Assembly: GCA_947589465.1 (NCBI GenBank)
Contig: CANQAE010000006.1
Location: 1-47,885 of the forward strand
DNA length: 47,885 nt
Source of the DNA: an uncultured Clostridia bacterium
Lineage (GTDB): Bacteria; Bacillota; Clostridia; Christensenellales; Pumilibacteraceae
Reading direction: 5' to 3'
Positions 24,829 to 35,537 of the stretch are shown piece by piece. The translations under genes and the position numbers were made by a program. A model generated the notes under the pieces. It was not told the origin of the DNA. It made no database searches and saw only the letters and a list, made by a program, of their open reading frames with translations. Positions within the stretch are counted from its first letter, which is position 1, and each line of letters opens with the position of its first letter.

Positions 24829-27018
24829 TTAATTACTTGTGGGGTAATATCCCATAACCGCGCCGAGGTGACCTTCTTGTCCCTTAACCCCAACATAGAT
24901 ATTGAGATAGTCGCCATCAAACAAAGGATTTTCTTTGTCGGTGATCGGTTGATTATTAGCGTCCATGAAGTTGGTCTCATTAAAGTATGCCACACCTCCC
25001 TTTGCACTCTGGAATATTGGAGCACCGCTTGTCGCCAACAGTCCATTTTCAAACATCGCTTTGACAACTAATGAACTTTGCGTGTTTCCTTGACCGAAAT
25101 CGAGCGGAGTATTGTCGCCGATACCGAGATATCCTTTTATCTTTGCGTATTCGGGAGCCGCTTTTCCGGTATTGGCTTTGAATACCGCTATAAAGTTGAA
25201 CTTGCCGTCTTTAAGGAACGTCCTGCCGAACGGCGTAAACGCGGCATTGATACCCTTCACATCACCTGCGAGTCCTTGCGCCTTTACGAGAGCAAACCAG
25301 CCTTCGGTTCCTTCGACAAACGATTCGAGATGGCTGTCTGCCGAAACTTTGACATTGGCGGCATAAAGCGAGCCTCGAGTCGATTGAAAGTCGGCTTCGT
25401 CGCAAATCATAACGGGACCGCCCGCGCCTATCATTTCGGAATGATCGACCGTAAAGAAGTTTTGCTTGTCATACGGTTCGCCGCCCCATACATACATAAA
25501 CGAGTTGTAGTTGTCGTATGCCTTGCAACTTTGGATCGCATGCTTTGTTATCGATCCGTTCCAGGATTCGGGGAAGAAAGTGATAAACCATTTGATGGCT
25601 ATCGAGTTTTTGATAACGAAATCAACGTCTTGAACCTTGTAGAAGATAAGTCCGCCGCTGAGTACGCCGCCGTTCTCGTCGCTGCGATTGGAGTTGCCTA
25701 TAAGATACAAGTTCTTCATGGTCGAAGATGCAATATTGTTTGTATTGTCCTTGTTCTTGCCGACGATCTTGATAAGCGTAGCATGGCTGACTACCGCGCC
25801 CACGTTGGTGACCTTGTCGCTCTCTCGAACTACGAGAGGCATAGCGGACGCGTCGAGGTTGAAATAGTTACCTATAATTTCAAAATTTTCCCCAGGCGCT
25901 ACACATCTTTCGTAGATCTCGCAACCGTCACGAAGCGAATTTACTACCGAAATTCCGGGGTTGTCTTGCGTACCGCGATTATAATCTTCGTCGCTCGGAT
26001 TTACATCTTTCTCGGTATACAAGAAAGACGCGGGAATATCTTCTTTTGTGATGCTTATGTCATTATGCAAAATAACGGCGGCTACCTTTTTATTAGCGTC
26101 ATAGCCGTTGTCGGCTTTGAATTTCTTCCACTGAGCGTCGGCAGTTCCATGTTCTCCATCAGAAGATTCGAACGACAATCTGTCGTACTCGATCATGCAA
26201 AGGTCCTTTGCGGTATAAACATTCCAGCCGTCAATTACTTTGAATTCGAAACTTACGCTTTGCGTCGACGAATCGGACTTACCCTTGATAAACGGACGAA
26301 CCGTAAACTTTATGGTTTTGCCGACTGCGGGGGTAAGGAATTGATATTTTCCGTATTCTTTAACTTCCACATATTGCTCGATATTTGCAGCCTTTTCATA
26401 TGCTTCTTCATTCTTGATTTCCAAGGTAATTTCTGCGTCTATTTTGGAGTAATCGACTGGTACGGAATAGCCTTCTTCCAAAACCGTAACTTCGGGCTTA
26501 AATTCGAACGGGTTATCGTCGCCTACGTAGAATCCGTCGTTACGATCATAGAATTCCGAGCGTTTTGCGTTGGGATTCGAATCGGTAACTTGCTTTTCGG
26601 CGATCGCAGTATTATGCGCCGTAATAAATTGCGGCAACGTAACGCCGACTATCCTGAGATCTTCCGGATTATCCGGATTGTCGGGTCCGGGACCGGCGGG
26701 TTCGGTAACCGTGATTTCATAATTAACGGTGACGTTCTTGTACGTTATTTTGAGGTCGAATTTGCCCACTTGTGCGGTACTGAATTCGCCTACCGTAATA
26801 CCGTCTGCTTTCTTGACCGTTTCCGTCGTTCCGTCGGAGTAATAAACAATAATTTCGAGTTTATCGGTTTTCAGAACTCCGTCCTTTTCGACAACGGTCG
26901 CAATAGTTCCGTCTTTCACTTCTATCTTTTCGATAGTCTTGCCATCTTGGCACGCTACCGCCGTAAAGACCAAAGTCAATACAAGCAAGAACATAGCCAA
27001 AAATTTGAATTTTCTCAT
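24829..27018 (-). CDS. large surface lipoprotein with N-terminal Ig-like domain
   Basis: 729 aa. A hydrophobic signal ends in T-A-V-A-C with the lipid-accepting cysteine at C23, so the mature protein should be anchored on the outer face of the membrane. Residues 25-105 form an all-beta Ig-like domain (I-E-K-I-E-V-K-D-G ... Y-Y-S-D-G-T-T-E-T-V ... G-K-F-D-L-K-I-T-Y), followed by a Pro/Gly/Asn linker (107-120). The long C-terminal part (about 250-729) alternates short hydrophobic strands with Asn- and Gly-rich turns, reminiscent of a parallel beta-helix, but I recognise no enzyme family. ATG follows AAAGGAGG. It is last in a unit with an ABC transporter, which suggests a role in binding or displaying that system's substrate. 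Confidence 0.8.
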   Translation of the reverse strand: MRKFKFLAMFLLVLTLVFTAVACQDGKTIEKIEVKDGTIATVVEKDGVLKTDKLEIIVYYSDGTTETVKKADGITVGEFSTAQVGKFDLKITYKNVTVNYEITVTEPAGPGPDNPDNPEDLRIVGVTLPQFITAHNTAIAEKQVTDSNPNAKRSEFYDRNDGFYVGDDNPFEFKPEVTVLEEGYSVPVDYSKIDAEITLEIKNEEAYEKAANIEQYVEVKEYGKYQFLTPAVGKTIKFTVRPFIKGKSDSSTQSVSFEFKVIDGWNVYTAKDLCMIEYDRLSFESSDGEHGTADAQWKKFKADNGYDANKKVAAVILHNDISITKEDIPASFLYTEKDVNPSDEDYNRGTQDNPGISVVNSLRDGCEIYERCVAPGENFEIIGNYFNLDASAMPLVVRESDKVTNVGAVVSHATLIKIVGKNKDNTNNIASSTMKNLYLIGNSNRSDENGGVLSGGLIFYKVQDVDFVIKNSIAIKWFITFFPESWNGSITKHAIQSCKAYDNYNSFMYVWGGEPYDKQNFFTVDHSEMIGAGGPVMICDEADFQSTRGSLYAANVKVSADSHLESFVEGTEGWFALVKAQGLAGDVKGINAAFTPFGRTFLKDGKFNFIAVFKANTGKAAPEYAKIKGYLGIGDNTPLDFGQGNTQSSLVVKAMFENGLLATSGAPIFQSAKGGVAYFNETNFMDANNQPITDKENPLFDGDYLNIYVGVKGQEGHLGAVMGYYPTSN

Positions 27019-27065: not shown

Positions 27066-27524
27066 TTAGGTGGGATTTTTAAAATTGTTTATTTGGACCG
27101 TAAAATCACGGCTACGGGCTTTTTGTCCGTCTTTACTGAGTATATAAACCTTTGCGTATAAAATATCGAAGTCGTCCGAAAGCACGCTCACCTCGCCGTC
27201 CGACGTGATCTGCAATTTGCCGACTGCGTTATCGGGCATATTGACGATGAACTCCACTTCCTTGTTCGTGGCGTTTTCGGGCATAACTTTGCAATAAAGT
27301 CTGAACTTCAATCCTTTGCTGTATTCCTTTACTACGAAATCCTGGTCGGGATAACGAGGCGGATGAGAGATCTTGTACGAATCCGAATACGGGTCGTCGA
27401 TAAGTTCGATACTCTGAACATACAATATGGGGTCGAAAATAGCAAGTTTTATGCCGAGATATCCGACCAAAACTATCGAGAGAATATATATTACGCAAAT
27501 TGTCAAAACTACTGACTTTCTCAT
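27066..27524 (-). CDS. membrane-anchored Ig-like (Big_2-type) protein
   Basis: 152 aa. One N-terminal membrane segment (about 6-28) has no lipobox, so the rest probably faces outward. The C-terminal part reads L-Y-C-K-V-M-P-E-N-A-T-N-K-E-V-E-F-I-V ... G-E-V-S-V-L, the pattern of bacterial Ig-like group 2 domains (V-x-P-x-N-A-T-N-K-x-V-x-W). Such domains mediate adhesion or act as spacers. The start ATG overlaps the permease stop by one base (TAATG) with GGGAG upstream, and the lipoprotein gene follows 47 nt later, so it belongs to the same transcription unit. The function is unknown. Confidence 0.75.
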   Translation of the reverse strand: MRKSVVLTICVIYILSIVLVGYLGIKLAIFDPILYVQSIELIDDPYSDSYKISHPPRYPDQDFVVKEYSKGLKFRLYCKVMPENATNKEVEFIVNMPDNAVGKLQITSDGEVSVLSDDFDILYAKVYILSKDGQKARSRDFTVQINNFKNPT

Positions 27525-29233
27525 TACATTTTCTCCCTATAATAGAGCCTTACTTTTATGATGAATAGGTAAATGCGCATTGCCGCAAACGCCATCGCTA
27601 TTATCATAAGTTTAAGGCAAGCCGTAATGGGATTGACGCCGCTCTCGTTGAACAATATGAACGAGAAAAACGCAACCGCAAACGAAACCAAAAACGCCAT
27701 TACGGTCATAAAATTGCTGTTCGGATTGTTGATCTCTCCGCCCGTCGTGGCATATTGTTCGTTTTGCGGATTCATTATGTCACGCTCGGCGCTCCACACC
27801 ATATGTCCTATATGGAAGAACAGCACGGTAAGCGCAAGCATTATGAGTCCGCCCACTCCTATCGAGGACGAGTTGAACGCGCCGAATATTCCTATCGACA
27901 CGATTATCGAGATCAGCGAAAACAGCGAGTTGTAAAAAATCTTACACAAAAGCGGGAAAGTCATATCGAGAGGTTTTGTCTTCTTCATATATCCCGCTCT
28001 ACCTTCCATGGAGTACATAGTGGAAACTATGCCGTTCGAGGAAAGCAAAATAAGCAATATGATAAGCAGATTGAACGCGTATATCATATAGTTGCCGAGT
28101 ATGTTCGTACTCATTGCCGCATAAATTTTGTTGAGCAAAAGTATGAGTATGGGTACTGCGATATAAACCGCCAAAAAACTATACGAAATCGACGAACGCA
28201 GATTGAGCAAAAATTCCTTGCGCAAGATCGACTTGTATTTTCTTCTTTTGCGGTTCTCCTTTGCCTTAATGAATTCTTTCTTCTCGAATTCGAAAGGTTG
28301 TGCGGTCATCTTCAAAAACAGCGGCTTTGCAATGAGATAAACTATGCCGAGCACGACCGCTATCGTCACGAGCACATACAAAAACACGAGTGCGTTGGAA
28401 GGTTTGAGCGTAAAGGTAAGGTTTTCGTACGTGCCGATAAGCATTTCGGTTATCGCGTACAGCGGCAATATGTATGTCTTTGCCGACTCGATAAACGATA
28501 TTACCGACGGTCTGTATTTGAGCGGCCAATCGTTGATGAAGTTGATATTTTCGGGTATCAACATAATAAGTTCGACTATAAGCGCGATCACCGCTCCAAC
28601 GACAAGCACGAACAAAGTGACTTTGACGGGCTCATACTTTTTGAGGAATTGATACACGAACATGGCAGGTATGGCAAGAAGCGCTCCTATCGCGACGGGC
28701 AACGCCGACACGAAAATAAGGACAAACGCCATCCAGAAGTACATTCCCACCGAAAGATGCGAAACCATTCCGTACGCTATGAAAAGCGGGAACGTGAATG
28801 TGTACGATCTCATAAGTTCGAACAAGTAGTACACCACGAGTTTGGAGAAGAACACCATATTACCCGTCACGGGCATGGTGACGAGAACTCTGTTGTCGTC
28901 CGCGAAAAACAGAGTTTTCATAAGTCCGACCATGCATGACAATACGCTCAGTATGAATATTATGGAGAACGCGAGCGCCATTACTATTGGCGGCACCCAG
29001 GCGATTATGGCAAAGATGCTGAAAAACGCCGAATAGTAAAAGATATAGTACGCCGCCACGATTATCGCCGCAATGCGCAACACGAAAAAGACCACCTTTG
29101 CGATCAACTGCTTGGTAGAAGTTAAAAACGAGAGATCGAGTTTGTCTTTAAGTTGCATCATAACGAGCGACTTAAAGTGCGAAAATGCGCGACCTCGCTT
29201 TTTTTCTTTCACTTGTGCTTCCGTACTACTCAC
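27524..29233 (-). CDS. large polytopic ABC transporter permease
   Basis: 569 aa with about a dozen hydrophobic segments arranged in two halves, separated by a charged cytoplasmic stretch near residues 315-345 (many Lys, Glu and Arg). After that stretch comes L-R-K-E-F-L-L-N-L-R-S. The pattern resembles large ABC-2-like permeases of Firmicutes that work with a separate ATPase. The start is GTG 29233, overlapping the ATPase gene by 8 nt, so coupling to the ATPase is likely. It ends within 1 nt of the Ig-like gene. I cannot assign a substrate. Confidence is high for membrane protein and moderate for ABC permease, which rests mainly on context. Confidence 0.75.
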   Translation of the reverse strand: MSSTEAQVKEKKRGRAFSHFKSLVMMQLKDKLDLSFLTSTKQLIAKVVFFVLRIAAIIVAAYYIFYYSAFFSIFAIIAWVPPIVMALAFSIIFILSVLSCMVGLMKTLFFADDNRVLVTMPVTGNMVFFSKLVVYYLFELMRSYTFTFPLFIAYGMVSHLSVGMYFWMAFVLIFVSALPVAIGALLAIPAMFVYQFLKKYEPVKVTLFVLVVGAVIALIVELIMLIPENINFINDWPLKYRPSVISFIESAKTYILPLYAITEMLIGTYENLTFTLKPSNALVFLYVLVTIAVVLGIVYLIAKPLFLKMTAQPFEFEKKEFIKAKENRKRRKYKSILRKEFLLNLRSSISYSFLAVYIAVPILILLLNKIYAAMSTNILGNYMIYAFNLLIILLILLSSNGIVSTMYSMEGRAGYMKKTKPLDMTFPLLCKIFYNSLFSLISIIVSIGIFGAFNSSSIGVGGLIMLALTVLFFHIGHMVWSAERDIMNPQNEQYATTGGEINNPNSNFMTVMAFLVSFAVAFFSFILFNESGVNPITACLKLMIIAMAFAAMRIYLFIIKVRLYYREKM

Positions 29234-31682
29234 TCTGTTCCGCCTTTTTTGTCTTTTTGTGCTTTTTTCCGTCGGGCTTGCCCTTTTTTCCGTCGTCCTC
29301 GTCGGAAATTACCTGCCTTTCAACGTCCGTTTCCTCTATCGTCTTTAAGTAAAAATCTTCGAGCGTGTTATCGGGACCGAATTCCGAAACGTTGCGCGTG
29401 CAGATTATTTTGCCTTTTTTGATTATGGTTATGCGATCGCATATACGCTCCACTACGTCTATGATGTGGCTCGAAAAGAACACTATGTTCCCCTCTTTGG
29501 CGTGTTGCTTCATACATTCCTTGACTTGATAAATGCTGTTGGGATCAAGTCCGGTGAGAGGCTCGTCGAGTATCCAAAGACGCGGATTATGAACAAGCGC
29601 CGCCATTATCGTGATCTTTTGCTTCATTCCGTGCGAGTACGTGCGCATACTGTTGTCTATCGAGCCTTCGAGTTCGAACAACTTGACGTATCTGTCTATG
29701 CGCTCGTCGCGTTCTTCCTTGCCGACGTCGTAAATGTCCGCTATATAGTTAATGTATTCTCTGCCCGTCAGTCGCTCGTAAAGCGCGTAATGGTCGGGTA
29801 CGTACCCTATCTGCCTTTTGGCTTCGACCGATTGCTTCTCGACGTCGTAACCGCATACCTTGATCGTGCCTTCGGTTATCGGTTGTATGCCGACGATGCT
29901 TTTTATTATCGTCGATTTGCCCGCGCCGTTCGGTCCCAAAAAGCCGAATATTTCGCCTGCATGAACTTCGAGATCGGCGTTCTTGACCGCATAAACGTTA
30001 CTCGATCCGTAACGTTTGCCAAATCCCTGCAATATGAGTTTGTCAGTCTGATCGTTATACATAGGTTCGGTTTTACTCCTCCCGTTTAATGTGCTGAGCA
30101 TAGCGTACTTGTCCTGTCTGAATTTTCGGTTGCGCGCATGCATATCGTAATGGAAGTCGGCAACCAAGAAAAATTGTTCGTACACGAACCACATTGCAAA
30201 CGCTATGCCGACGTACACCACGAAAAACAATACCTGATATACCGGATAGTATACGAAATGCAATCCCCCGATGTCGAATTCCAGAACAAAGTTCGTGCGA
30301 AGCGCTTCCGCCCATGAGCCGAGTTTGTCCACTATAAAGTCGCTGTTGAGAAAGAAATAGTCAACGTCGCCGTAATTGCTGAACCAGCCGTTTATCACAA
30401 GCACGAGCAAGAAGTACACGGCAAAGCCCGCCATCGAATACCAGAATTGTCTGAACTTCGGACGCGCGAACATTTTGAGTGCGACAAGCAGCAACGGCAT
30501 AAAGAATGCGCAAAAGTGATTTATCCAAAACAGCACGAGCGCCGTGCTGAACATATTCGTCCCGTCTGCGTAATTGGGCATTGCCATTGCCAAAAACGCG
30601 CCCATGACGTTGATGAAATATGTAAAGTAAAAGAGTTTGTCCAACTTAAATATTATGCAGATCGGGATTATATACATCGCCGTGTTGCATAAGTGCAACG
30701 GCCAATGATACGGCGTCAATATGTCGGCGAAAGTGTAATTGTACGAATACGAAATCATTGTCGCAAGCGCAAGAAACAATATCGAGTAATGTATAACTTC
30801 CTTCGACTTATTTCGCAATGCAAAGTAGACCGCGATCGGTATAAGCACCGACGCATAAAGAAACGCGCGATGGTCGGGTCCCAAATCTTTGACCGTATAA
30901 AGCGTGTTCGCCCGCCCGAAAAGCATTTGAAGCAGATACGGAGGAAACGCCGCGATGAGCATCGGCAAAACCGACAAAAGCAAATTGAGCGCTTCTTTCT
31001 TCGAAATGCGCAAATTGCCGTCGCGGATCCAGGCGTTGCCGCATATAGCAAGTCCGCAACCTATTTCGGCAGCCATCGCCGCCGCCGACAAATTAAGTTC
31101 GGCTCCAAGCGAAAAGTCGCAAAACAGCGTAAGCATGGGAGTCAAAAATCCAAGACAGATTACGAATACGGGCGTGGCGAAAAATTTCACCGCGTTGTTG
31201 GCGGTCTTGAAATCGTAAAACGGATACAGTATGACTGTCAAGATCGCCGCCGCTTCGAGCCATAACATCAAGGTAGACAATACGCCGAGTCCCGACGAAA
31301 CGGGAGCGGCAATAAGTCCGTACTGTCTGTACGGGTCTATTATGTCAAGATCGACGAGAGTTGCGTTCCTCAGGTCGCGGCTCGCAGAAAAATAACGAAG
31401 CACAAACATAAGCGCCGCAAACAAGGACGGCAATATATATTTGTCCTCTACTGGCTTAACGAATCGTCTTTTCTTTTTGCCCTTTTTCTTTTCGTCATTT
31501 CCCTCGTCTGCTTTTTTTGCGGCTTTGCTCGCTTCGGCGTTTATGGTATGTATATCGGATTGCGAGGGCGCAACCATATCGGCGTCACATTCGTGACGCT
31601 TTTTGCCGCACGCAAATACTTTGCTTATCGCGGCTATAAATATGGTGACGGCAAGTCCCGCCGATACAAATAAATAGTACAT
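29226..31682 (-). CDS. YwaF/TMEM164-like membrane domain fused to ABC ATPase
   Basis: 818 aa. Residues 1-20 form a membrane segment; 25-80 is a highly charged, Lys-rich stretch; 80-510 contains about a dozen membrane segments. Within that part, H-W-P-L-H-L-C (328-332), a Phe/Tyr-rich helix and F-W-I-N-H-F (388-389) match the pattern of the YwaF family, the bacterial relatives of TMEM164. Residues 545-785 are an ABC ATPase: Walker A G-P-N-G-A-G-K-S-T (583-591), signature Y-S-H-G-M-K-Q-K (682 on), Walker B L-W-I-L-D-E-P (702-708) and H739. The tail (795-818) is Lys-rich. The frame is continuous, so the fusion is real unless two sequencing errors cancelled. First gene of a four-gene unit with a consensus promoter. 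The ribosome site GGGGGAGG is only 2 nt from the ATG. Confidence 0.88.
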   Translation of the reverse strand: MYYLFVSAGLAVTIFIAAISKVFACGKKRHECDADMVAPSQSDIHTINAEASKAAKKADEGNDEKKKGKKKRRFVKPVEDKYILPSLFAALMFVLRYFSASRDLRNATLVDLDIIDPYRQYGLIAAPVSSGLGVLSTLMLWLEAAAILTVILYPFYDFKTANNAVKFFATPVFVICLGFLTPMLTLFCDFSLGAELNLSAAAMAAEIGCGLAICGNAWIRDGNLRISKKEALNLLLSVLPMLIAAFPPYLLQMLFGRANTLYTVKDLGPDHRAFLYASVLIPIAVYFALRNKSKEVIHYSILFLALATMISYSYNYTFADILTPYHWPLHLCNTAMYIIPICIIFKLDKLFYFTYFINVMGAFLAMAMPNYADGTNMFSTALVLFWINHFCAFFMPLLLVALKMFARPKFRQFWYSMAGFAVYFLLVLVINGWFSNYGDVDYFFLNSDFIVDKLGSWAEALRTNFVLEFDIGGLHFVYYPVYQVLFFVVYVGIAFAMWFVYEQFFLVADFHYDMHARNRKFRQDKYAMLSTLNGRSKTEPMYNDQTDKLILQGFGKRYGSSNVYAVKNADLEVHAGEIFGFLGPNGAGKSTIIKSIVGIQPITEGTIKVCGYDVEKQSVEAKRQIGYVPDHYALYERLTGREYINYIADIYDVGKEERDERIDRYVKLFELEGSIDNSMRTYSHGMKQKITIMAALVHNPRLWILDEPLTGLDPNSIYQVKECMKQHAKEGNIVFFSSHIIDVVERICDRITIIKKGKIICTRNVSEFGPDNTLEDFYLKTIEETDVERQVISDEDDGKKGKPDGKKHKKTKKAEQSE

Positions 31683-32997: not shown

Positions 32998-34872
32998 CTA
33001 TCTTCTTCCGCCGCCGCCTCCGCCGAAGCCGCCGCCGCCGAAACCGCCGCCAAAGCCGCCGAAACCGCCGCCTCCGCTAAACGACGAACGGGACGGACGG
33101 GACGCCATTGCCGAAGCATAACTTACGAACGAATTCCTGAAAATCGCGTTGAATACCATAAAGTCGAATATGTCGGGACCATGGTAGTAGGCAGGCGGCG
33201 GGACAGATTCGAGTTCTTCGAACTTTTCCTGCCAGATCTCGCTTACGCCGAGCACGTTCGCGTACGGTAATATGTTGTAGTAATACTGAGGATCGTCTTC
33301 GAGCATCTTTTCGAGTTTGTCCTTTTCGGCAAGGCGAAGAAACTCCTTGAAGCCCACGATTTGCCCCATAACCGACGCGTAATATTCTGATTTGCGATTC
33401 ATCATGCCGCATACGAAGCCTATGACCGCAAGTCCGCAGTAAATCACCGCCCTCGCATACACGGGGAATATCCCGCCGAGGAAAAACAGCGAAGCCACCA
33501 CTCCGCCGAACAGCACGGCGACCGTCATGCCGAGGCAAAACAAGGTTATGCGCTTCGTCGATAACTTGTGCTTTACGTTGAATATATATCGCCCGCAACC
33601 GAATCCTATTGCCGTGAATATTGCCGCGAAACCTATCGGGAATATTAGCGAACTAATCAGAGAAATATTGACCTGTATCGTGAAAACGCAAATTGCGATC
33701 GCGACAAGTATTGCGCCGACCGCCGCTATCACGGGCGAAAATTTCGATTTTCCGTCGAACAACTTGCCCGCATAATCGCATTTTATTTGACTTGTAGCAA
33801 GCGCTATTTCGGCATAGTACGAATCGGAAAGTTGGGCGCTCGAAATCTTGTCGCCTTTCTTGAATAGTCCGTTGAAGATTATCTTTCTGTGCAAAGGCTC
33901 GCCATCACCTATTTCGCCCTTTTTGATGAGCGTGAAGTCGTTATCTTCGACGCTTTCTATCTCAATAAGCCCCTTTGACGCAAAGTAAAATATCATTGCC
34001 GTAATATCTTTCGGCTCGCAATTGTTGTCAATAAGATATCCCATTTGCGCAGGATCGAGTTCCTTGCCGCTATCGAGCGGCGGGGTCGCATTGACCACGG
34101 GGACGATCATTCTGTCCTTCAATGCGAACAATTTCAAGCATACGGCGGAGGTGACGAGTGCGAGTATCAAAAGGATCGAAACAAGTCCCGCCGCCCCGAA
34201 ATTAACGTTGAATTTGCGACCCATCTCCGCATCAACAGTAACTCCGTTGAACGGATCGAGATCAAGCCCCGTCATGGTGATCGTCTTGCGATCTTCGTCA
34301 AGACTAAACGCGGACGTGGTTACTGACGAACCGTAATCGCCCATATAGACTTTAAGGTCTTTTATTTCGAAAGGAAAACTCATTTTTACCGAAACGTTTT
34401 CCTGTTTCGTTGTCCAGCCGTACGGAACTATGTTCATATAGTAATTGGTATTTTGGACGGTGCGCACAGGCGGTACTATGTCGTACGAAATGACATAATC
34501 TATTTCCTTGCCGATGGGATAGTAAGTATAGTCGTCGCCCGTGTAAACAGCCAAAAAGCCGTCTTCGGACGACATATAGTACGTATCGCCCGTTACGGTA
34601 ATGTTACGATATTGTTCGCCGCTGCCTGTCGGCAACCACCTTATTATGCCCCTGCTTCGAACGTTGAACCTTACCGTGAGCGATTCCGTAACCGAAGCGA
34701 CGTGATCTTCCGCTACTGCAATATCGTAATTTGCTTTCGTTATGGTATATCCGTTGTCAACGCGAAATTCATCGTATGCGTTATCCGCCGGTAACGGCAC
34801 CAACAAAAGTACGATGAATACGCCCAAAAAGAGCAAGGTGACGGCAACTATCAGCCATCTGAATTTTTTCAT
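32998..34872 (-). CDS. DUF2207 membrane protein with Gly-rich C-terminus
   Basis: 624 aa. An N-terminal membrane segment (about 5-27) is followed by an all-beta extracytoplasmic domain of the DUF2207 type (N-Y-D-I-A-V ... V-T-E-S-L-T-V-R-F ... G-I-I-R-W-L-P). Next come a membrane segment near 235, a cytoplasmic region with the L-I-D-N-N-C-E-P-K-D-I-T-A winged-helix-like stretch, two pairs of membrane segments (about 375-480), and a tail made almost only of Gly and Phe (last 25 residues). Proteins of this build commonly occur next to LemA, as here, where the LemA stop and this start are adjacent (TAAATG). The function is unknown; a membrane-stress or envelope role is often suggested for the pair. 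Confidence 0.88.
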   Translation of the reverse strand: MKKFRWLIVAVTLLFLGVFIVLLLVPLPADNAYDEFRVDNGYTITKANYDIAVAEDHVASVTESLTVRFNVRSRGIIRWLPTGSGEQYRNITVTGDTYYMSSEDGFLAVYTGDDYTYYPIGKEIDYVISYDIVPPVRTVQNTNYYMNIVPYGWTTKQENVSVKMSFPFEIKDLKVYMGDYGSSVTTSAFSLDEDRKTITMTGLDLDPFNGVTVDAEMGRKFNVNFGAAGLVSILLILALVTSAVCLKLFALKDRMIVPVVNATPPLDSGKELDPAQMGYLIDNNCEPKDITAMIFYFASKGLIEIESVEDNDFTLIKKGEIGDGEPLHRKIIFNGLFKKGDKISSAQLSDSYYAEIALATSQIKCDYAGKLFDGKSKFSPVIAAVGAILVAIAICVFTIQVNISLISSLIFPIGFAAIFTAIGFGCGRYIFNVKHKLSTKRITLFCLGMTVAVLFGGVVASLFFLGGIFPVYARAVIYCGLAVIGFVCGMMNRKSEYYASVMGQIVGFKEFLRLAEKDKLEKMLEDDPQYYYNILPYANVLGVSEIWQEKFEELESVPPPAYYHGPDIFDFMVFNAIFRNSFVSYASAMASRPSRSSFSGGGGFGGFGGGFGGGGFGGGGGGRR

Positions 34873-35457
34873 TTAGAATTTTACCTGTACGTTCTGTCTT
34901 TCGCTTTCTTCAACCTCGAAAAACGGCTTTTTGGTAAGTTTCATAGCATTTGCTATAAGGTTGGACGGGAAAAACATTATCTTGTTATTGAATTGCTTGA
35001 CAGTGGCGTTGTAATATTTGCGATGCTGTGCGATATCGTTTTCAATAGACGTAAGTTGACTTTGCAACATAGCGAATTGTTGATTCGCTTTGAGATCGGG
35101 ATATGCTTCCTGCAAAGCAAAAAGAGATTTGAGAGTCCCGCTGAGCATATTTTCCGCTGCGATCTTGTCCTCGGCGGAAGTCGCGTTCATTGCCCTGTTT
35201 CGCGCTTCGACCACCTTGGTGAGCGTTTCGGACTCGTGCGAAGCATAACCTTTGACCGTTTCAACGAGATTGGGAATAAGGTCCCACCTCTTTTTGAGAT
35301 AAACGTCAACCGTCGAAAACGCTTCTTCGACGTTGTTACGTAAACCGATGAGCGAATTGCGCGTGGAGATAAGCCAAATGACTATTCCCACGACCACAAC
35401 GACCGCGATTATGACTATCAACCAAATAGCCCAACTTTCGATCCCCAACAAAAACAT
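34873..35457 (-). CDS. LemA family protein
   Basis: 194 aa from ATG 35457, supported by GGAGG 8 nt upstream. A single N-terminal membrane helix (about 8-30) is followed by the LemA coiled-coil domain: N-S-L-I-G-L-R-N-N-V-E-E-A-F-S-T-V-D-V-Y-L-K-K-R-W-D-L-I-P-N-L-V, Y-A-S-H-E, A-R-N-R-A, Y-P-D-L-K-A-N and the C-terminal Y-N-x-x-V-x-x-F-N block, here followed by F-F-P-S-N-L-I-A. These are the family's defining segments. LemA proteins are widespread with no settled function. First gene of the operon with the DUF2207 protein, the S51 peptidase and dtd. Confidence 0.93.
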   Translation of the reverse strand: MFLLGIESWAIWLIVIIAVVVVVGIVIWLISTRNSLIGLRNNVEEAFSTVDVYLKKRWDLIPNLVETVKGYASHESETLTKVVEARNRAMNATSAEDKIAAENMLSGTLKSLFALQEAYPDLKANQQFAMLQSQLTSIENDIAQHRKYYNATVKQFNNKIMFFPSNLIANAMKLTKKPFFEVEESERQNVQVKF

Positions 35458-35507
35458 ATCGAATCCTCCGTAAAAACTTATTTTGCCCGCTTTCGACAGG
35501 CAAAAAG

Positions 35508-35537
35508 AATATAACATAACTCCTTAATTTTAGTCAA
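35508..35537 (-). promoter_or_regulatory. promoter of the lemA operon
   Basis: TTGACT (35537-35532), 18 nt, TATATT (35513-35508), about 50 nt before the lemA start. A small hairpin (GCCTG with CGGGC) follows in the leader. Confidence 0.6.

Follow-up and report, generated by a model that had tools for sequence, protein, structure and literature searches.

A TMEM164/YwaF-family membrane domain fused to an ABC ATPase in a conserved four-gene operon of Clostridia

A stretch of 47,885 nucleotides (nt) from an uncultured, gut-type Clostridia bacterium of the Pumilibacteraceae (order Christensenellales; assembly GCA_947589465.1, contig CANQAE010000006.1, positions 1 to 47,885; the whole stretch is referred to as the window) was found to encode, in a single frame (gene 1), a polytopic membrane domain of the TMEM164/YwaF family joined to a complete ATP-binding cassette (ABC) ATPase. 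Gene 1 heads a conserved four-gene operon, in which it is followed by a predicted ABC-2-type permease (gene 2), an immunoglobulin (Ig)-like protein (gene 3) and a surface lipoprotein (gene 4). The same domain order occurs in more than 60 distinct homologues from independent assemblies of Clostridia and Acholeplasma/Bacilli-type bacteria. The fusion, the permease and the two surface proteins together suggest an undescribed machine for envelope lipids or lipid-linked molecules. From family membership, conserved Cys and His residues, topology and the operon, the system is tentatively read as an envelope ABC-2-type exporter whose motor subunit may carry an outer-leaflet, TMEM164-type Cys/His acyl-transfer domain acting on a lipid or a lipid-linked molecule.

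Human TMEM164 has recently been identified as a lipid transacylase with a link to ferroptosis. No description of the function of any bacterial YwaF/TMEM164 protein was found, widespread though the family is. The fusion to an ABC motor, conserved and set in a constant operon with surface partners, provides the first strong functional context for these proteins. Every part of the system comes from a known family; the combination, the operon and the split precursor are undescribed in the open literature searched, which omits most subscription journals. Nothing was found there on PF14808 or TIGR02206, nothing joining Christensenella, ABC transporter, lipoprotein and TMEM164 and, judging from titles and abstracts, nothing relevant-looking on YwaF.

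The fused frame and its operon

The original prediction had described a continuous 818-codon frame with about a dozen membrane segments ahead of an ABC ATPase, and a separate permease gene overlapping it by 8 nt, all of which was borne out. The frame runs unbroken from ATG to stop on the minus strand, and the plus-strand translation of the same interval is broken by stops. Thirteen membrane segments precede the ATPase by hydropathy, and the AlphaFold2 model of gene 1 (mean predicted local distance difference test (pLDDT) 81.5, predicted template modelling score 0.69) is consistent with them. The P-L-H-L-C, N-H, Walker A and Walker B motifs were all found where they had been placed (Table 1). 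Searched against Pfam, the gene 1 protein matched TMEM164 (PF14808, gathering cut-off 25 bits) at residues 271-486, with 74.9 bits and an E value of 8.6e-21, and ABC_tran at residues 566-709, with 102.6 bits and an E value of 3.5e-29. The ATPase is complete, with the Walker A (GPNGAGKST), signature-like (YSHGMKQ) and Walker B (LWILDEP) motifs and the switch His (H739) conserved in the alignment. The NCBIfam model TIGR02206, titled 'TMEM164-related integral membrane acyltransferase', scored 59.5 bits (E = 2.8e-16), below its curated cut-off of 75 bits; judged by these scores, the membrane domain is a clear relative of TIGR02206 outside the curated subfamily.

The assignment of residues 80-510 to YwaF/TMEM164 held for residues 271-486 and failed for residues of about 80-265, a block without known family that was found too in unfused relatives of about 480 amino acids (aa). 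The possibility that this block is an internal duplicate of the TMEM164 domain found no support, hhalign of the two blocks giving a probability of 0.7%. No ordinary permease family claimed residues 80-510. Gene 1 resembles the TMEM164 family (PF14808; human TMEM164, Bacillus subtilis YwaF; TIGR02206) in its conserved Cys and His residues, its seven-segment layout and its match above the Pfam cut-off, whereas ordinary bacterial members are stand-alone proteins of about 230-300 aa; in gene 1 a further membrane block precedes the domain and an ABC ATPase follows it.

Almost every fusion locus with sufficient sequence downstream shows the four-gene order, the exceptions being contig ends and a few loci where a simple gene picker took overlapping frames. 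PF16949 was matched by 13 of 15 gene 2 relatives (best E = 8e-15); the window's own gene 2 reached 23.1 bits, just below the cut-off of 25.7. By this family assignment, gene 2 is an ABC-2-type permease. With ABC-2-type exporters (DrrAB, GldAFG, PF16949 permeases) the system shares a DrrA/GldA/ABCA-like ATPase whose permease is encoded separately within the operon, but the gene 1 ATPase bears a large non-permease membrane domain and the operon adds two dedicated surface partners. Among solved structures, the best sequence matches of the ATPase domain were ABCA1, ABCA3, ABCA4 and ABCA7. The membrane architecture of these ABCA phospholipid transporters is different, and no substrate can be inferred from the match because the similarity is confined to the ATPase domain. 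A fold search with the whole gene 1 model likewise returned matches to the ATPase part only, a whole-fusion query hardly probing the membrane fold. Sequence-profile searches for solved-structure relatives of the membrane domain and of the permease gave none up to E values of 10 and 1, respectively.

Table 1. Features of the fusion gene and its operon (positions in the window)
Feature	Position	Strand	Basis
Gene 1, 818-aa fusion of TMEM164/YwaF-family polytopic membrane domain and ABC ATPase	29226..31682	minus	frame, motifs, Pfam
Extra membrane block, residues 80-265, about five segments, without Pfam family	30888..31445	minus	Pfam, hydropathy, AlphaFold2
TMEM164 (PF14808) domain, residues 271-486, seven predicted membrane segments	30225..30872	minus	Pfam, AlphaFold2, NCBIfam
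His271 codon	30870..30872	minus	alignment
P-L-H-L-C motif, residues 328-332; Cys332 in 97/97 relatives	30687..30701	minus	alignment
N-H motif, residues 388-389; His389 in 95/96 relatives	30516..30521	minus	alignment
ABC ATPase domain, residues 548-785, DrrA/GldA/NosF/ABCA-like	29328..30041	minus	Pfam, structure matches
Walker A GPNGAGKST, residues 583-591	29910..29936	minus	sequence, alignment
ABC signature-like YSHGMKQ, residues 682-688	29619..29639	minus	alignment, invariant Y682 to Q688
Walker B LWILDEP, residues 702-708	29559..29579	minus	sequence, alignment
Gene 2, 569-aa predicted ABC-2-type permease, PF16949 family, GTG start	27524..29233	minus	Pfam in relatives
Gene 3, 152 aa, single-pass: N-terminal membrane anchor and small extracellular Ig-like-type domain, conserved in operon	27066..27524	minus	
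Gene 4, 729-aa surface lipoprotein, Big_3 Ig-like domain and predicted right-handed beta-helix	24829..27018	minus	Pfam, AlphaFold2
Gene 4 lipobox Cys23, nearly invariant in family	26950..26952	minus	alignment

Spread and origin of the fusion

The domain order was surveyed in a sample of 248 genomes from the window's order. A TMEM164-family match was found in 103 of them, about 30 of these in frames of 667-845 codons, and the long-frame loci extracted from this sample included 33 true fusions with both parts. Both Pfam families were matched independently by all 32 aligned full fusions, at identities of 33-51%. Additionally, a scan of named genomes returned fusions in many further Clostridia assemblies and in Acholeplasma, Izimaplasma, Coprobacillus and other Bacilli-type assemblies. 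The genome survey that had been proposed for the domain order was answered in this way, and no stop or frameshift separated the two domains in dozens of independent genomes. The source assembly is a draft of 56 contigs, and an assembly join, a lost stop codon or the mistaking of the transporter's own permease for a second domain was therefore considered as an explanation, but its probability is negligible: a chance frame or artefact is contradicted by the more than 60 independent homologues, the TMEM164 family is matched by the membrane part of all 32 aligned members, and the permease is a separate conserved gene.

In wider samples of the class (291 genomes) and the phylum (299), the TMEM164 proteins were mainly of the ordinary stand-alone kind, 230-310 aa long. 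One fusion and one stand-alone family member were found in the source genome. Outside the order, two long frames above the cut-off (1059 and 634 codons) were found to be fusions to other domains; the 634-codon frame (L151:2411-4312) joins a TMEM164-family domain to a second, unrelated-looking polytopic membrane domain. As a separate observation, four small genomes (G138, G151, G163 and G208; 1.0-1.2 Mb), all from one family of the order, show an expansion to between five and eight TMEM164-family genes each, some in tandem.

An unfused state was found in six loci (L104, L105, L115, L119, L130 and L134), in which a membrane gene (476-487 aa) is followed in turn by an ATPase gene (244-286 aa), the permease, gene 3 and gene 4; the ATPase frame of L134, overlooked by the gene picker, was recovered at the tree step. 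Related ATPase-permease pairs without any TMEM164 gene were common (most of L108-L149). When 106 ATPase domains were placed in a tree, the fusions fell in one group (support 98/92), with the split forms as their probable sister, a weak join (91/38), and the TMEM164-less loci outside both. The lone unfused row inside the fusion group comes from L103, where it overlaps the frame of the fusion, of which it is probably a frameshifted fragment. The fusion appears to have arisen essentially once, and the tree therefore suggests a history in which an ABC-permease pair gained a neighbouring TMEM164-family gene that was later fused to the ATPase.

Conserved residues, topology and surface partners

Across fusions, unfused relatives of about 480 aa and ordinary family members of about 250 aa, Cys332 was found in every relative counted and His389 in all but one (Table 1). 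These two residues are the putative counterparts of the catalytic residues of human TMEM164. The YwaF pattern of the original prediction stood in this respect; its P-L-H-L-C motif proved less general, His330 being invariant in fusions but replaced by Gln or Phe in the long relatives. Similarly, His271 was kept in 82 of 83 proteins where aligned (65/66 fusions, 10/10 long and 7/7 short relatives). The conservation of His271, the two extracellular partners and the set with the halves as separate neighbours had not been foreseen.

The last membrane segment should run out-to-in, because the ATPase must be cytosolic, and when the helices of the AlphaFold2 model are counted back from it the basic loops 289-299, 345-349 and 402-411 fall inside. 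Since the ATPase is cytosolic and the positively charged loops lie inside, His271, Cys332 and His389 are placed on the outer side: His271 and Cys332 are predicted at outer helix ends, His389 within the outer half. The Cys/His site would then look toward the outer leaflet, across the membrane from the ATPase and at the face where the gene 3 and gene 4 proteins lie. In an unrelated fusion at another locus (L150:1354-4530) a signal sequence and an extracellular-type 5'-nucleotidase/metallophosphatase directly precede a C-terminal TMEM164-family domain. The metallophosphatase is of extracellular type, so the N-terminus of that domain should lie outside, in agreement with the topology of gene 1. 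On its domain content, this locus also indicates that the TMEM164-family domain recruits other partners too.

The lipobox Cys of gene 4 was found in 45 of 51 homologues by a strict pattern and in three more on reading, and because it is conserved the protein is taken to be a lipid-anchored partner at the outer face. This conservation, with the predicted active site toward the outer leaflet, would suit a role of the TMEM164-like domain in lipoprotein maturation, namely N-acylation or lipid remodelling of the gene 4 product. Such a role is improbable: the earliest-branching fusion pair (L032 and L094) retains Cys332 and His389 although its surface proteins carry an N-terminal membrane anchor and lack a lipobox, and generic lipoprotein acylation needs no ABC exporter of its own.

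Big_3 Ig-like domains were matched in 12 of 18 gene 4 homologues, some of which also had pectate-lyase-like or beta-helix Pfam matches. In structural alignments of the AlphaFold2 model of gene 4 (mean pLDDT 78.7), the C-terminal part was best aligned with the alginate epimerase/lyase 8ja4 (Z score 13.5, 245 residues, root-mean-square deviation (rmsd) 4.7), followed by pectate lyase and polygalacturonase, and the top seven matches were all polysaccharide-active beta-helix enzymes. The shared fold shows no function for gene 4. It would nevertheless fit the export of a lipid-linked glycan that is bound outside by the gene 4 beta-helix and acylated by the TMEM164-like domain, an explanation that we regard as quite unlikely, given that the operon has no glycosyltransferase, that its flanks differ among genomes and that the conserved residues of gene 4 (G166, N266, G383, N384, N442 and N608) are mostly Gly and Asn, unlike a catalytic cluster.

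A beta-helix partner also recalls NosDFY, a transporter of copper-site maturation in which an ABC-2-type ATPase and permease act with NosD, a periplasmic beta-helix protein. NosDFY has no TMEM164 domain, and the beta-helix protein of gene 4 is a lipoprotein with Ig domains, for which Pfam gave no NosD family match. On a model of the NosDFY kind nothing would be exported; the ATPase and permease would drive conformational work on the Ig and beta-helix proteins by mechanotransmission of the NosDFY/MacB type, with the TMEM164-like domain as a non-catalytic structural or lipid-sensing adaptor. Of the solved structures, NosF ranked among those nearest to the ATPase (Z score 28.7, 233 residues, rmsd 2.0), and the predicted beta-helix of gene 4, the dedicated single-pass Ig partner and the conserved gene set are in keeping with such a machine. 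We consider this model somewhat unlikely. The ATPase likeness is weak, many ABC families aligning at similar Z scores. No copper, nitrous oxide reductase or NosL genes were noticed in the neighbourhoods, which were inspected by gene size, matched family and partial reading, the flanks not being exhaustively annotated. Mechanotransmission also leaves the near-invariant Cys332 and His389, across fused and unfused relatives, unexplained.

As an observation on the surface proteins of related loci, an ATPase-permease pair in L108, L109, L144 and L147 is followed by a surface protein of about 2050-2090 aa that matches the gene 3 profile through Ig-like repeats; these loci seem to represent a sister version of the system that lacks TMEM164.

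Proposed working of the machine

In the preferred reading, the operon would make an ABC-2-type envelope exporter from the fused ATPase and the separate permease, with the Ig-like protein of gene 3 and the beta-helix lipoprotein of gene 4 as dedicated partners at the outer face and with every motor subunit tied to one TMEM164-family membrane domain. That domain would most likely transfer or hydrolyse acyl chains on the outer side of the bilayer: His389, perhaps with His271, may activate Cys332, which would take an acyl chain off a phospholipid and hand it to an acceptor offered by the exporter or by its partners at the surface. The transport cycle could be linked to acceptor delivery, or to the opening of the active site, through ATP binding and hydrolysis on the same polypeptide. 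The acyl-transfer chemistry, the substrate and the coupling are proposed tentatively, as a plausible rather than a probable account, and we likewise infer the direction of export, the acyl donor and the acceptor. The acceptor, the exporter and the outer-face partners would be genetically linked and open to testing. Such a system suggests a kind of envelope machine with lipid chemistry and ATP-driven transport on one polypeptide, present in Clostridia and in wall-less Acholeplasma relatives.

The human protein provides the chemical model: TMEM164 is described as a cysteine-dependent, coenzyme A-independent transacylase, by which arachidonate is taken from phosphatidylcholine and passed to ether lysophosphatidylethanolamine (PMC13276253, PMC11592020).

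Several points weigh against acyl transfer by an exporter. ABC permease loci exist whose ATPases are closely related but that function with no TMEM164 domain, so that the domain is an accessory. The conserved Cys and His residues could instead bind a metal or a cofactor. A sequence profile of the TMEM164-like membrane domain had zero matches among PDB sequences. We also know of no activity for any bacterial YwaF/TMEM164 relative.

A more specific form of the proposal is an ATP-driven membrane acyltransferase, in which the ABC motor and the TMEM164-type site would be a single machine: ATP would serve to bring an acceptor to an outer-leaflet phospholipid and to transacylate it, and a dedicated surface lipoprotein would take up or present what is formed. 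This form is unlikely and is put forward as a speculation; if true, it would be, to our knowledge, the first acyl-transfer domain built into an ABC motor subunit.

The genes flanking the operon were also considered as further partners, but they were not conserved across genomes, and many were housekeeping genes, as were some of those read. A role in anti-phage defence was rejected, since PADLOC gave no match for the operon parts scanned (the ATPase was left out of the scan). Just upstream of the operon and of a D-aminoacyl-tRNA deacylase gene, a DUF2207 membrane protein (32998-34872, minus strand) adjoins a LemA-like gene (34873-35517, minus strand).

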